A stretch of 37,160 bases of DNA from Clostridia bacterium (lineage in GTDB: Bacteria; Bacillota; Limnochordia; DTU080; RSA5), in the NCBI GenBank assembly GCA_002919235.1, contig PKEX01000025.1, forward strand, positions 1-37,160. Direction: 5' to 3'. Positions within the stretch are counted from its first letter, which is position 1; the number at the start of each line of letters is the position of its first letter. Positions 23,222 to 29,214 of the stretch are shown one piece after another. The notes under the pieces are model-generated. The model did no database searches. It was given only the letters and a program-made list of their open reading frames with translations, and had not been told where the DNA came from. The translations under genes and the position numbers were made by a program.

Positions 23222-23899
23222 ATGACCCGACGCGTGAAGTTTCGCTTTCTCCGGGCAGCTGCCGCTCTCTCGGGCCTGGCGCTGGCGTGGGTTTGTGTGC
23301 TGGCCGGCCCGGCGCTGGCAGCGCCCGCGGCCGAGGGGAATGCCAGCGGCCGGGCGCCGGTCGCCGACGGCGTGGCGCGGCGGGCGCTGGAGGAGGCGCT
23401 CCGCTTCGCCGACGTGATCTACCAGTGGGAGGGCCGTGCGGAGCAGGGCGTCGCCTACCTTTGGGGCGGGCGCATGAGCGTCGATGAATACTTGCAGGCG
23501 GTGGCGGAAGGGAAGCGCCCGGGCGTGGAGGCCGGGGTGGACGCTTCCGGCCTGGTCGTGCAGGCGTACCGCGCCGCGGATCCCGCCATCCGTTTCGTGG
23601 TGGAAAGCGGCGGCGGCGAGCAGCGGGTGCGGGACGTGAGCAGCGGGGCTCTCTATCGCTGGAACGTGCGGACCGTGCCCGTGGACGAGCTGCGGCCCGG
23701 CGATCTCATCTTCTTCCAGAACAGCAGCGGGCAGGTCTCCGGGGTGGCCATCTTCGAGCGGCGGGAAGGTCCCAACGTCCATTTCGTGGTGGCGTCCGCC
23801 AACTCGGGCAAGGTGATCCGGACCTTCCTGAATGTAAATAACGAGTACTGGAAGACGCGGGTGCTGGGGGCAGGACAGCTGCTCGAGGCGTCCCCGTGA
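23222..23899 (+). CDS. Secreted NlpC/P60-like protein lacking the catalytic triad
   Basis: The 225-residue protein begins with a Sec signal (MTRRVKFRFLRAAAALSG..., likely cut after ALAAPA near residue 36). The following domain follows the NlpC/P60 order: VAYLWGGRMS, then DASGLVVQAYRA, ELRPGDLIFFQ, GVAIFERR and a closing strand ending YWKTRVLGAGQLL. In active enzymes these read DCSGLV and HVGIY, with a later His, Asn or Gln. Here the Cys is Ala108, the His is Gly174 and the third position falls in VVASA. So it is predicted not to cut peptidoglycan and may bind it or regulate other hydrolases. The ATG has GGGGAGG ten bases upstream. The next gene overlaps it by four bases. Confidence 0.75.
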   Translation: MTRRVKFRFLRAAAALSGLALAWVCVLAGPALAAPAAEGNASGRAPVADGVARRALEEALRFADVIYQWEGRAEQGVAYLWGGRMSVDEYLQAVAEGKRPGVEAGVDASGLVVQAYRAADPAIRFVVESGGGEQRVRDVSSGALYRWNVRTVPVDELRPGDLIFFQNSSGQVSGVAIFERREGPNVHFVVASANSGKVIRTFLNVNNEYWKTRVLGAGQLLEASP

Positions 23900-24195
23900 T
23901 CCCCTGGCTCAACCGGGGCAAGTGGGAACGGCCCTCCGACGCCATGGCGGTCTACACCGAGATCGAGCCGGGCAAGCGGTGGGGCATCCGCGTCACGCTC
24001 ATCGGCGATTTTGCCCGGGTCGAGGCTATTGACGGCGAAAAGTGTTCGTGGTATAAACCTGGTCCAGAACTTTCAAAAGACGTGAAGGCGCCGAACCTGC
24101 TGGAGCGCTTGCGGGGAATCAGCTTCGAAGACAAGTTGAAGGCCGAAGTGGAGGCCAAGCGCAAGGTGGCAGCGGCGCGCAACGGCGTCTCTTGA
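23896..24195 (+). CDS. Small protein of unknown function, coupled to the NlpC/P60-like gene
   Basis: Its GTG start overlaps the stop of the previous gene (GTGA), giving 99 residues; an ATG at 23944 (MAVYTEIEPGK) is an alternative that would make it 83. The protein is soluble: a strand-rich part (WGIRVTLIGDFARVEAIDGEKCSWYKPG), then a charged helix (FEDKLKAEVEAKRKVAAARNG). No family recognised. The overlap suggests translational coupling, although the first protein is exported and this one has no signal. Confidence 0.6.
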   Translation: MIPWLNRGKWERPSDAMAVYTEIEPGKRWGIRVTLIGDFARVEAIDGEKCSWYKPGPELSKDVKAPNLLERLRGISFEDKLKAEVEAKRKVAAARNGVS

Positions 24196-27048: not shown

Positions 27049-29214
27049 ATGTGCCGTGAACGCCGTCCGGGCGTGCTGTCCCGCCTTCGCCAGTGGGCGC
27101 CGCTGGCCGTGGCGCTTTGGCTGGGAGCGCTCATGGCGCCGGTTCCAGCCCTGGCCCGCGTGAGCGGGGCGCTTCCGCTCTCCCATCCCGCGTGGCACAA
27201 TCCGTGGGCGCGGGACCCGGCAGTGGCCGGTCCCGATCCCGGCCGCTGGGCCGAAGTGACCGCTCTCTACCTCGGCGGAGACCTCCAGGGCGCGGCGCGG
27301 GCCCTGGAGGAGATGTTGGCCGCGGGCTTCGACGAAGCGGCGGTCCGGCGCAGCCTGGCCGCGGTCTACAAGGACCTCGGAGAGTACGGCAGGGCGGCCG
27401 CGGAGTACCAGCGGCTCTTGGAGCTCGAACCTGACGATCCGGAGCTCCTGGTGGACCTGGGCTTTGCCCTGCTGGGGGCGGGGGATCCGGAGGCAGCCGC
27501 GGCCCGCTTCGGCGACGCGCGGGCGCAGGGTGCTGGGGAGCCTCTGGCCTCGTTCGGCCTGGGGCTGGCCCGCTACGTGGTGGGCCGGCTGGAGGAGGCC
27601 GCGGCGGCACTGGAGGAGGCGGTGCGGCGCGACGAGCGGCTGGCGGCCGCGCACGACCTCCTGGGAAGGATCCGCTTTGAGCAGGGGGATTACGCCGCAG
27701 CCGCCGCGGCGCTGGAGAGGGCCGTGCGGCTCGACTCGAGCTTTACCCCCAGCTACTACCTGCTGGCCAAAAGCTATGAGGCCCTGGGCGACTTACGGCG
27801 CGCCTGGACCCAGTACGACCGCTCCCGGAGAGTCCTCCCGGGGCGGCCCGAGGTGGCGGCGGACGTCGCGCGCTTTCTCGAGCATCACGGGTCGCTCATC
27901 GCCGCGTGGGAGGAGGAGCGGGCAGCGGCCCGCCGGCGGGCGCAGCACCGGAGGGTGGAGCCCTTGGACGTGCCGCCCGGAACCCCGGCAGTGCGGGTGG
28001 GGCTCCTAGAAGGAGCGGAAGGCGTCACGTTTTCCGCGGGCGCCCCGTTCCGCCTGGAGCCGGCCGCCGGCGGGGCTGCGGACGGCGGCGCCGGCGCCGG
28101 AGGGGAGCTTTCCGCCGGCGTGTGGGAGGTGCGCCTTGAAGAAGGCCACGTGGTGCTGGAGGGGCCGGAAGGGGAACTGCTTCGCCTCCAAGGCAGCGTG
28201 CGGCTGACCCCGGTCGACCCGGCGGCCACCATGATCCTCTACGATTTGGAAGTGGATCGCGGGTACTTTTGGGCCACCCGGGAGGACCTCCAGGTCCGGG
28301 GAAGCCTTGAACTCCTGGTGCGCGAGCGGGGCATCACCGTGGTCAACGTGCTGGACATCGAGTCGTACCTCTTGGCCGTGGTCCCGTCCGAGATGTACCC
28401 GTCCATGCCGCTCGAGGCTTTGAAGGCGCAGGCCATCGCCGCCCGCACCTACGTCCTGCGCGCCTTGGGCCGCTACGCCTCCCGGGGCTTCGACGTCCTG
28501 GGCTCCGTCGCCTCCACCGCGTACCGGGGCGTCGCGCGGGAGCAGGCCTCCACGACCCGGGCGGTGCTGGAGACGCGCGGCCAGGTGCTCACCTACCAGG
28601 GCCGGCTGGCCAACGCCGTCTACACCTCCAGCGCCGGCGGGTACACCGCCTCCGCGGCAGAGGCGTGGGGCGGCGGGGAACCGTTCCTAAAGGCCGTTCC
28701 CGAATGGGGACCGCAGGAGGGCGGGCCCGAATTTCCCCTGGCTCCCGCGGCGCTGGAGCGCTGGCTGAAAGGGATCCCGGACGTCTACTCCAGCCGTCCC
28801 CGGGAGGCCGTGTTGAGCACGTTCCGCTGGGTGCGGCTGGTGGAGGCGGACGAGATCGCGCGGCGGCTCGGCAGGCCCGTGGGGGAGATCCACGCCATCG
28901 TCCCGGGCCCGCGCGGGCTCGGGGGGTACGTGAGGAGCGTCACGGTGGTGGGAAGCCAGGGCCGGCACGAGGTGCGGGGCGATGCCATCCGCAGCGCCCT
29001 GGGGGGCCTCAAGTCCAACGCCTTCAAGGTGGAGCCGGTGCGGGGTCCGGACGGGCGCACCCGCGCGTTTCTCTTCTTCGGAGCGGGATTTGGCCACGGG
29101 GTGGGAATGTCGCAGTTCGGCGCCGCCGGCATGGCGGAGGAGGGATGGCGGGCCGAGGAGATCCTGGCACACTACTACCCCGGCACCGAGATCCGGCCCG
29201 GCTACAACCGCTGA
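27049..29214 (+). CDS. Secreted TPR protein with C-terminal SpoIID/LytB domain
   Basis: 721 residues. A Sec signal covers about 1-36 (LAVALWLGALMAPVPALA). Residues of about 65-280 are tetratricopeptide-like repeats, with repeated A-A-x-Y-x-x-L-L-E-L-x-P-D-D and L-G-x-A-x-Y motifs. A Gly/Ala-rich linker follows. The SpoIID domain runs from about 400 to the end: VVNVLDIESYLLAVVPSEMYPSMPLEALKAQ with the likely catalytic Glu448, AIAARTYVL, AVYTSSAGGYTASAAEAW and the terminal GFGHGVGMSQFGAAGMA. SpoIID-type enzymes are lytic transglycosylases acting on peptidoglycan lacking stem peptides, during engulfment or in sporulation-related remodelling. The TPR fusion is long for the family and suggests a scaffolded complex outside the cell. 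The ATG has only GGGGG as a ribosome site. Confidence 0.9.
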   Translation: MCRERRPGVLSRLRQWAPLAVALWLGALMAPVPALARVSGALPLSHPAWHNPWARDPAVAGPDPGRWAEVTALYLGGDLQGAARALEEMLAAGFDEAAVRRSLAAVYKDLGEYGRAAAEYQRLLELEPDDPELLVDLGFALLGAGDPEAAAARFGDARAQGAGEPLASFGLGLARYVVGRLEEAAAALEEAVRRDERLAAAHDLLGRIRFEQGDYAAAAAALERAVRLDSSFTPSYYLLAKSYEALGDLRRAWTQYDRSRRVLPGRPEVAADVARFLEHHGSLIAAWEEERAAARRRAQHRRVEPLDVPPGTPAVRVGLLEGAEGVTFSAGAPFRLEPAAGGAADGGAGAGGELSAGVWEVRLEEGHVVLEGPEGELLRLQGSVRLTPVDPAATMILYDLEVDRGYFWATREDLQVRGSLELLVRERGITVVNVLDIESYLLAVVPSEMYPSMPLEALKAQAIAARTYVLRALGRYASRGFDVLGSVASTAYRGVAREQASTTRAVLETRGQVLTYQGRLANAVYTSSAGGYTASAAEAWGGGEPFLKAVPEWGPQEGGPEFPLAPAALERWLKGIPDVYSSRPREAVLSTFRWVRLVEADEIARRLGRPVGEIHAIVPGPRGLGGYVRSVTVVGSQGRHEVRGDAIRSALGGLKSNAFKVEPVRGPDGRTRAFLFFGAGFGHGVGMSQFGAAGMAEEGWRAEEILAHYYPGTEIRPGYNR

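Follow-up and report, generated by a model that had tools for sequence, protein, structure and literature searches.

The window analysed here is the whole 37,160-nucleotide stretch of contig PKEX01000025.1 from a Clostridia bacterium. On its forward strand lies a gene, with a GGAGG site 5′ of the start codon (cggggaggtctgtggtccATG), for a predicted exported NlpC/P60-like protein in which all three catalytic positions are occupied by other residues. The gene and the parts of its product that concern this replacement are:

23222..23899, + strand: gene of the putative NlpC/P60-like pseudoenzyme, an open reading frame (ORF) of 225 amino acids (aa); ATG at 23222, TGA ending at 23899
23222..23320, + strand: predicted signal peptide, residues 1-33, with an RR n-region, a hydrophobic core and ALA-AP
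23471..23539, + strand: family-specific insertion, residues 84-106, between the YxWGG and DxSG motifs, with a short helix (87-95)
23543..23545, + strand: Ala108, replacing the catalytic Cys; codon GCT, motif GVDASGLV
23741..23743, + strand: Gly174, replacing the catalytic His; codon GGG, motif GVAIF
23789..23791, + strand: Val190, replacing the third catalytic residue; codon GTG, motif FVVASA

The original prediction, made from the letters alone, had read DASGLV in place of DCSGLV, GVAIF in place of the His motif HVGIY and a third position without a polar residue. The coordinates, codon and motif given for the first replacement are correct, and in an alignment with canonical relatives, where the C108, H174 and H190 positions are in register, Gly174 occupies the His position. 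A catalytic NlpC/P60 peptidase carries Cys, His and a third polar residue; here the positions hold Ala108, Gly174 and Val190. The change from TGY to GCT requires two substitutions, as had been argued. The signal peptide is intact as read from the sequence, signal peptidase I probably cleaves after ALA, and an AlphaFold helix (6-27) falls inside it. Reading by eye, without a dedicated predictor, found no lipobox. The only Cys of the protein, Cys25, lies within the signal peptide, leaving the mature chain Cys-free.

The fold motifs are kept, as the original prediction held. NLPC_P60 (PF00877) is the single Pfam family above its cut-off (37 bits vs. 23, E 3.5e-9, residues 76-217), and neither the Pfam scan nor the AlphaFold model contains a second domain. 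A family profile (A1), built from 21 of the 30 sequences then collected, gives the same picture: all 21 members match PF00877, with E up to 0.01. AlphaFold models of the window protein and of an orthologue (L032) reach a mean predicted local distance difference test score (pLDDT) of 86.0 and 89.1, respectively, and present the same order of helices and strands, which suggests that the papain-like NlpC/P60 fold is preserved. The closest structural match of the window model is 7cfl (Z 16.2, root-mean-square deviation (rmsd) 1.8 over 123 residues); all five Protein Data Bank (PDB) matches with E up to 0.001, as well as the leading VIA rows, are NlpC/P60 proteins. Among the structures compared, RipD (4jxb) aligns with Z 13.4 and rmsd 3.1 over 126 residues. 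Endopeptidases of the MepS (Spr) and LytE/CwlO types share the single-domain NlpC/P60 fold (Z 12.8-15.1) but, unlike the window protein, are active enzymes with an intact triad.

Replacement of the catalytic residues is a property of the whole orthologous family. The window protein has matches in 41 of 100 related genomes, and an orthologue is present in 37 of the 72 genomes of its class. Outside the class, orthologues occur in three genomes of the same phylum with one shared family code, f40 (G095, G175, G261); three further genomes (G005, G021, G074) give weak matches only and hold no orthologue. The 40 carrier genomes yield 39 distinct orthologues, counted after 207 hidden Markov model (HMM) matches had been reduced to 140 by identity of the C-terminal 60 residues, a step that merges repeat copies and also joins G008 and G037. 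Conservation of Ala and Gly had been set beforehand as the check. The Cys position is Ala in 36 orthologues and Ser in three (Cys in none), and the His position is Gly in 39/39. The third position is Val in 20, Thr in 18 and Ile in one, so that the claimed loss of a polar residue stands for the window protein but not for the 18 orthologues with Thr. In L009, L020 and L028 the Ser at the Cys position (DSSA) could represent an intermediate, reached in one step, between the codons for Cys and for Ala. No Cys or His conserved elsewhere in the domain could stand in for the triad, and 33 of the 39 domains contain no Cys at all; a relocated catalytic Cys or His was rejected on these grounds.

All four Ala codons occur at position 108 (14, 12, 6 and 4 times) and all four Gly codons at position 174 (15, 12, 9 and 3 times). 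The ratio of non-synonymous to synonymous substitution rates (dN/dS) was about 0.19, 0.15, 0.17 and 0.13 by NG86 in four close orthologue pairs, and about 0.27, 0.21, 0.15 and 0.19 in the same pairs by YN00. Six pairs were tried, of which these four were valued by both methods and one gave no dS; the pair formed by the window protein and G001 has a dN/dS of 0.19 by NG86 only, at a dS of 1.68, near saturation. The use of every synonymous codon, together with a dN/dS of about 0.13-0.27, suggests purifying selection on the replacement residues themselves. Loss of the catalytic motif might in principle reflect a decaying gene or an assembly error, but the orthologues have open frames, and 39 distinct proteins share the inactive residues with varied synonymous codons and a dN/dS well below 1. 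Comparison of the orthologues refutes this explanation, whose probability is negligible, and bears out the earlier statement that no sequencing error is involved. With the predicted fold intact and the catalytic residues absent in all 39 orthologues, the protein is, from its sequence, almost certainly inactive as a cysteine peptidase, a pseudoenzyme as originally proposed.

The phylum also contains a second exported NlpC/P60 family, the catalytic sister, with Cys in 12/12 readable sequences and His in 13/13. Its third position is Asn in 11, His in one and Glu in one of the 13 members. Canonical sequences have Cys in 38/38 and His in 38/38, with His (36), Asn (1) or Ser (1) at the third position. 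Several sister proteins, probably most, show a lipobox-like Cys when inspected by eye. Sister-type loci (L150, L151, L154, L156, L160, L161, L164, L197-L201) combine Cys-His-Asn with, usually, THGG instead of SHVG, and we know of no description of this Cys-His-Asn, often lipoprotein-like catalytic family. The sister and inactive families have in common a D-A/V-T/S...L-Y/W-x-x-N stretch and a GxGR C-terminus, and they are nearest relatives in the tree. They differ at position 141, which is Ser in all 39 inactive proteins but Met or Ala in 11 of the 13 sister proteins (M/A/E/I overall), and in the spacing from GG to DxSG, which is 6-7 residues in the sister and canonical groups but 16-23 in 38 of the 39 inactive proteins and 63 in the remaining one. 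The added residues include a predicted helix, residues 87-95 of the window protein and 77-85 of L032, which closely precedes the one bearing the dead Cys. One orthologue, L147 (G022:C8:242414-243160), has about 40 extra residues in the insertion beside the dead Cys and lies inside a long open frame.

Of the 140 distinct matches, 90 were aligned and 89 placed in a maximum-likelihood tree (IQ-TREE, LG+G4, 147 columns); the 50 matches with the lowest scores, among them the catalytic L157, stayed outside the alignment, and the truncated L202 was omitted from the tree. Ultrafast bootstrap (UFBoot) is 100 for the separation of each of three groups, the inactive clade, the sister clade and the canonical sequences, and in this sequence tree the inactive group is monophyletic. 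No intermediate was found among the 140 matches: the 39 inactive proteins score at least 152.5 bits and the other 101 at most 92.3. Among those 101, 93 have a DC(S/L/T) motif and eight are stretches that start at or after the Cys. The simplest reading of these sequences is a single inactivation after duplication, followed by vertical descent with losses. L155 (G056) and L159 (G031) encode NlpC/P60 proteins of another subtype, with a DCLG motif. Viral relatives were also considered: 23 distant loci in viral contigs are at most 38% identical, and none of the retained loci outside the 39 scores as an orthologue; of those examined further (L211-L213), two have DCSG and one is a long fusion. A scan of genome contigs with a degenerate pattern returned one orthologue (L032) among the 80 loci listed; it does not establish that the family is absent from other phyla.

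The substrate site has been treated differently from the catalytic one. In YkfC, residues 237, 239, 257 and 226 contact gamma-D-Glu, according to PMC2954226. Their aligned positions in the window protein include Tyr79 (YkfC 226), which is Tyr or Phe in 38 of the 39 orthologues, and three invariant residues:

23540..23542, + strand: Asp107, equivalent of YkfC Asp237 (gamma-D-Glu contact); 39/39 orthologues
23546..23548, + strand: Ser109, equivalent of YkfC Ser239 (D-Glu carboxylate contact); 39/39 orthologues
23642..23644, + strand: Ser141, probable equivalent of YkfC Ser257 (D-Glu carboxylate cavity); 39/39 orthologues

The register of Ser141 was set through the canonical PR-x-[S/A/T] motif, aligned both to 3h41 and to the inactive family, and its equivalence, though probable, is the least certain of the four. 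Membership in the YkfC/dipeptidyl-peptidase VI (DPP VI) type of gamma-D-glutamyl-diamino acid endopeptidases (3h41) does not follow from these similarities. The inactive family shares the fold and the equivalents of Asp237, Ser239 and Ser257, but lacks the active Cys-His-His triad, the SH3b domains and the acidic residue of YkfC Asp256, in place of which position 140 is Ser, Thr or Asn in 36 of the 39 orthologues.

The nearest functional parallel is RipD (Rv1566c) of Mycobacterium tuberculosis, also an exported NlpC/P60 fold in which the catalytic Cys has become Ala and the other two catalytic residues are replaced. PMC12067865 reports Ala-Ser-Glu for its triad and binding of peptidoglycan without hydrolysis; loss of peptidoglycan hydrolysis is also mentioned in PMC6628586. 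In the window family, as in RipD-like non-catalytic binders, the catalytic Cys is lost while the substrate-site residues are kept. Unlike RipD, with its Ala-Ser-Glu and C-terminal pentapeptide repeats, the inactive family lacks repeats, has Ala-Gly-Val/Thr (Ile in one) and places an extra helix ahead of the dead Cys; the window chain has only four residues beyond the final strand of the model. The window protein falls far short of the RipD family NF033743 (21.5 bits vs. a cut-off of 215), and in sequence the inactive family is much nearer to its own catalytic sister (up to 92 bits) than to RipD chains (about 16 bits). The inactive family probably arose separately from RipD.

Because the S1 pocket residues are kept and RipD provides a precedent, the protein is, with somewhat better than even probability, an exported NlpC/P60 pseudoenzyme that binds peptidoglycan stem peptides on its own, without hydrolysing them, a reading drawn from sequence, models and analogy. 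Once exported, the domain would grip stem peptides by their gamma-D-Glu portion in the former S1 pocket; with Gly instead of His the cleft would be open on its far side, next to the extra helix. The protein may act by occupancy, either as a structural or protective component attached to the wall or as a reader of wall peptides, in a diderm sporulating Firmicute; its function would be RipD-like but derived from a different catalytic ancestor. Several points weigh against such binding. In YkfC the Arg of the PR motif, Arg255, belongs to the hydrogen-bond network of the active site; the inactive family has no equivalent, with Ala/Val/Ile at position 139, although the Arg is missing from the catalytic sister too. 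The Ser141 register is a sequence alignment across an indel; the pentapeptide repeats thought to aid cell-wall contacts of RipD are absent; and conservation of Asp107 and Ser109 could be explained by folding alone. The gene is missing from 35 of the 72 class genomes, including all 22 of family f13, making its role dispensable in some lineages, and its neighbours vary between families.

The same pocket bears on two other explanations. The cleft may have been re-tuned to another ligand (a lipid, wall precursor, released muropeptide or outer-membrane component), which would make the protein a binder or tether in the periplasm of the diderm envelope. The absolute His-to-Gly replacement (39/39) and the clade-specific insertion before the dead Cys do suggest a reshaped pocket rather than simple decay, and Omp85 in 70 of the 72 genomes marks the class as diderm. 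Yet the gamma-D-Glu contact residues are invariant, the protein has neither lipobox nor second domain, and genomes of families f13, f4 and f10 are equally diderm without carrying the gene, so that a new ligand is improbable. Residual catalysis through other residues, for example invariant Ser109, Ser141 or Ser192 with Asp107, is suggested by several invariant Ser/Asp positions and by Ser at the nucleophile position in 3/39 orthologues. It appears highly improbable: the domain has no conserved His or Cys to activate a serine, and Asp107 and Ser109 are equally conserved in catalytic relatives, where, according to PMC2954226, they serve substrate binding.

The original prediction had offered a peptidoglycan-binding or regulatory role, and the invariance of the presumed gamma-D-Glu-binding residues makes either plausible. 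Regulation of another NlpC/P60 enzyme is nevertheless unlikely: apart from the pseudoenzyme, no PF00877 protein was detected in the window's genome or in 30 of the 37 class carriers. Seven carriers have further matches (G010, G014, G025, G030, G031, G046, G054); this search, however, failed to recover the pseudoenzyme itself from G019, G022 and G048, and many assemblies are drafts. Another wall enzyme remains as the candidate partner. The pseudoenzyme may bind an amidase, L,D-transpeptidase, lytic transglycosylase or adaptor, which it would activate, target or shield, the dead cleft being a docking site. As is generally known, inactive hydrolase relatives commonly act as regulators. Genomes of family f6 carry an Amidase_3 gene about 1-2 kb away, and two downstream genes of the window, the second of them the fourth gene downstream, also favour such a partner:

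23896..24195, + strand: ORF of 99 aa; its GTG start overlaps the pseudoenzyme stop codon by 4 nt
27049-29214, + strand: TPR-SpoIID fusion, exported, 721 aa; homologues in L112 and L113

The 99-aa ORF has no Pfam match above cut-off and no visible signal peptide, and among the 41 regions compared its homologues occur only in L112 and L113; it is a possible co-translated partner in the window's gene order only. That order comprises the 99-aa ORF, an Orn/Lys/Arg decarboxylase gene and the TPR-SpoIID gene. Joining TPR repeats to a SpoIID domain in one protein is an uncommon SpoIID architecture. Elsewhere the neighbours are GerA/B/C in f7 (GerB and GerC identified by eye), Amidase_3 in f6 and a PTS EIIC-like gene in f15. 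A conserved operon was rejected: clustering of neighbours in the 41 regions (the window plus 40) showed no adjacent gene kept across families. The lack of a common neighbour counts against a regulatory role, as does the independence of gene presence from SpoIVA, Omp85, YkuD and MreC, all near-universal. Overall, regulation of a different wall enzyme is conceivable but unlikely.

The carrier class is diderm, with Omp85 in 70/72 genomes, and mostly sporulating, with SpoIVA in 66/72; YkuD occurs in 69/72 and MreC in 71/72. The class appears to fit Limnochordia, a group described as diderm in PMC11456536. Omp85, YkuD and MreC were rejected as phyletic partners, being too uniform to correlate with a gene found in 37/72 genomes. 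A link with sporulation was examined because of GerA/B/C in f7 and the SpoIID protein near the window gene. A role in sporulation only was rejected, since all six SpoIVA-negative genomes (G024, G027, G054, G059, G066, G070) carry the pseudoenzyme.

To our knowledge, RipD is the precedent for a non-catalytic NlpC/P60 protein, and the existence of such proteins is already known. The novelty lies in an independent inactive family that spans a whole clade, has a catalytic sister and is marked by its own insertion and by replacement of His with Gly without exception. In the open-access collection searched, no publication was found that links Limnochorda with NlpC or that treats an NlpC/P60 pseudoenzyme with peptidoglycan, nor a relevant one on noncatalytic NlpC. 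With a second such inactivation, independent, fixed in many genera and open to comparison with a catalytic sister, the role of a dead cell-wall endopeptidase would become directly testable. The carriers are diderm Firmicutes, apparently Limnochordia, whose wall-to-outer-membrane biology is little known. The annotation "NlpC/P60 family" is not equivalent to hydrolase activity, since for the window's genome it would imply a hydrolase where none of the family was detected. Going further, selection might have kept the pseudoenzyme, the sole NlpC/P60 protein in most carriers, for the specific task of reading or capping gamma-D-Glu stem peptides, with an extra helix built for it, and possibly of linking or sensing the wall and outer membrane. 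This is rather unlikely; if true, it would mean that an endopeptidase fold has been wholly converted to a binding module of the cell envelope.
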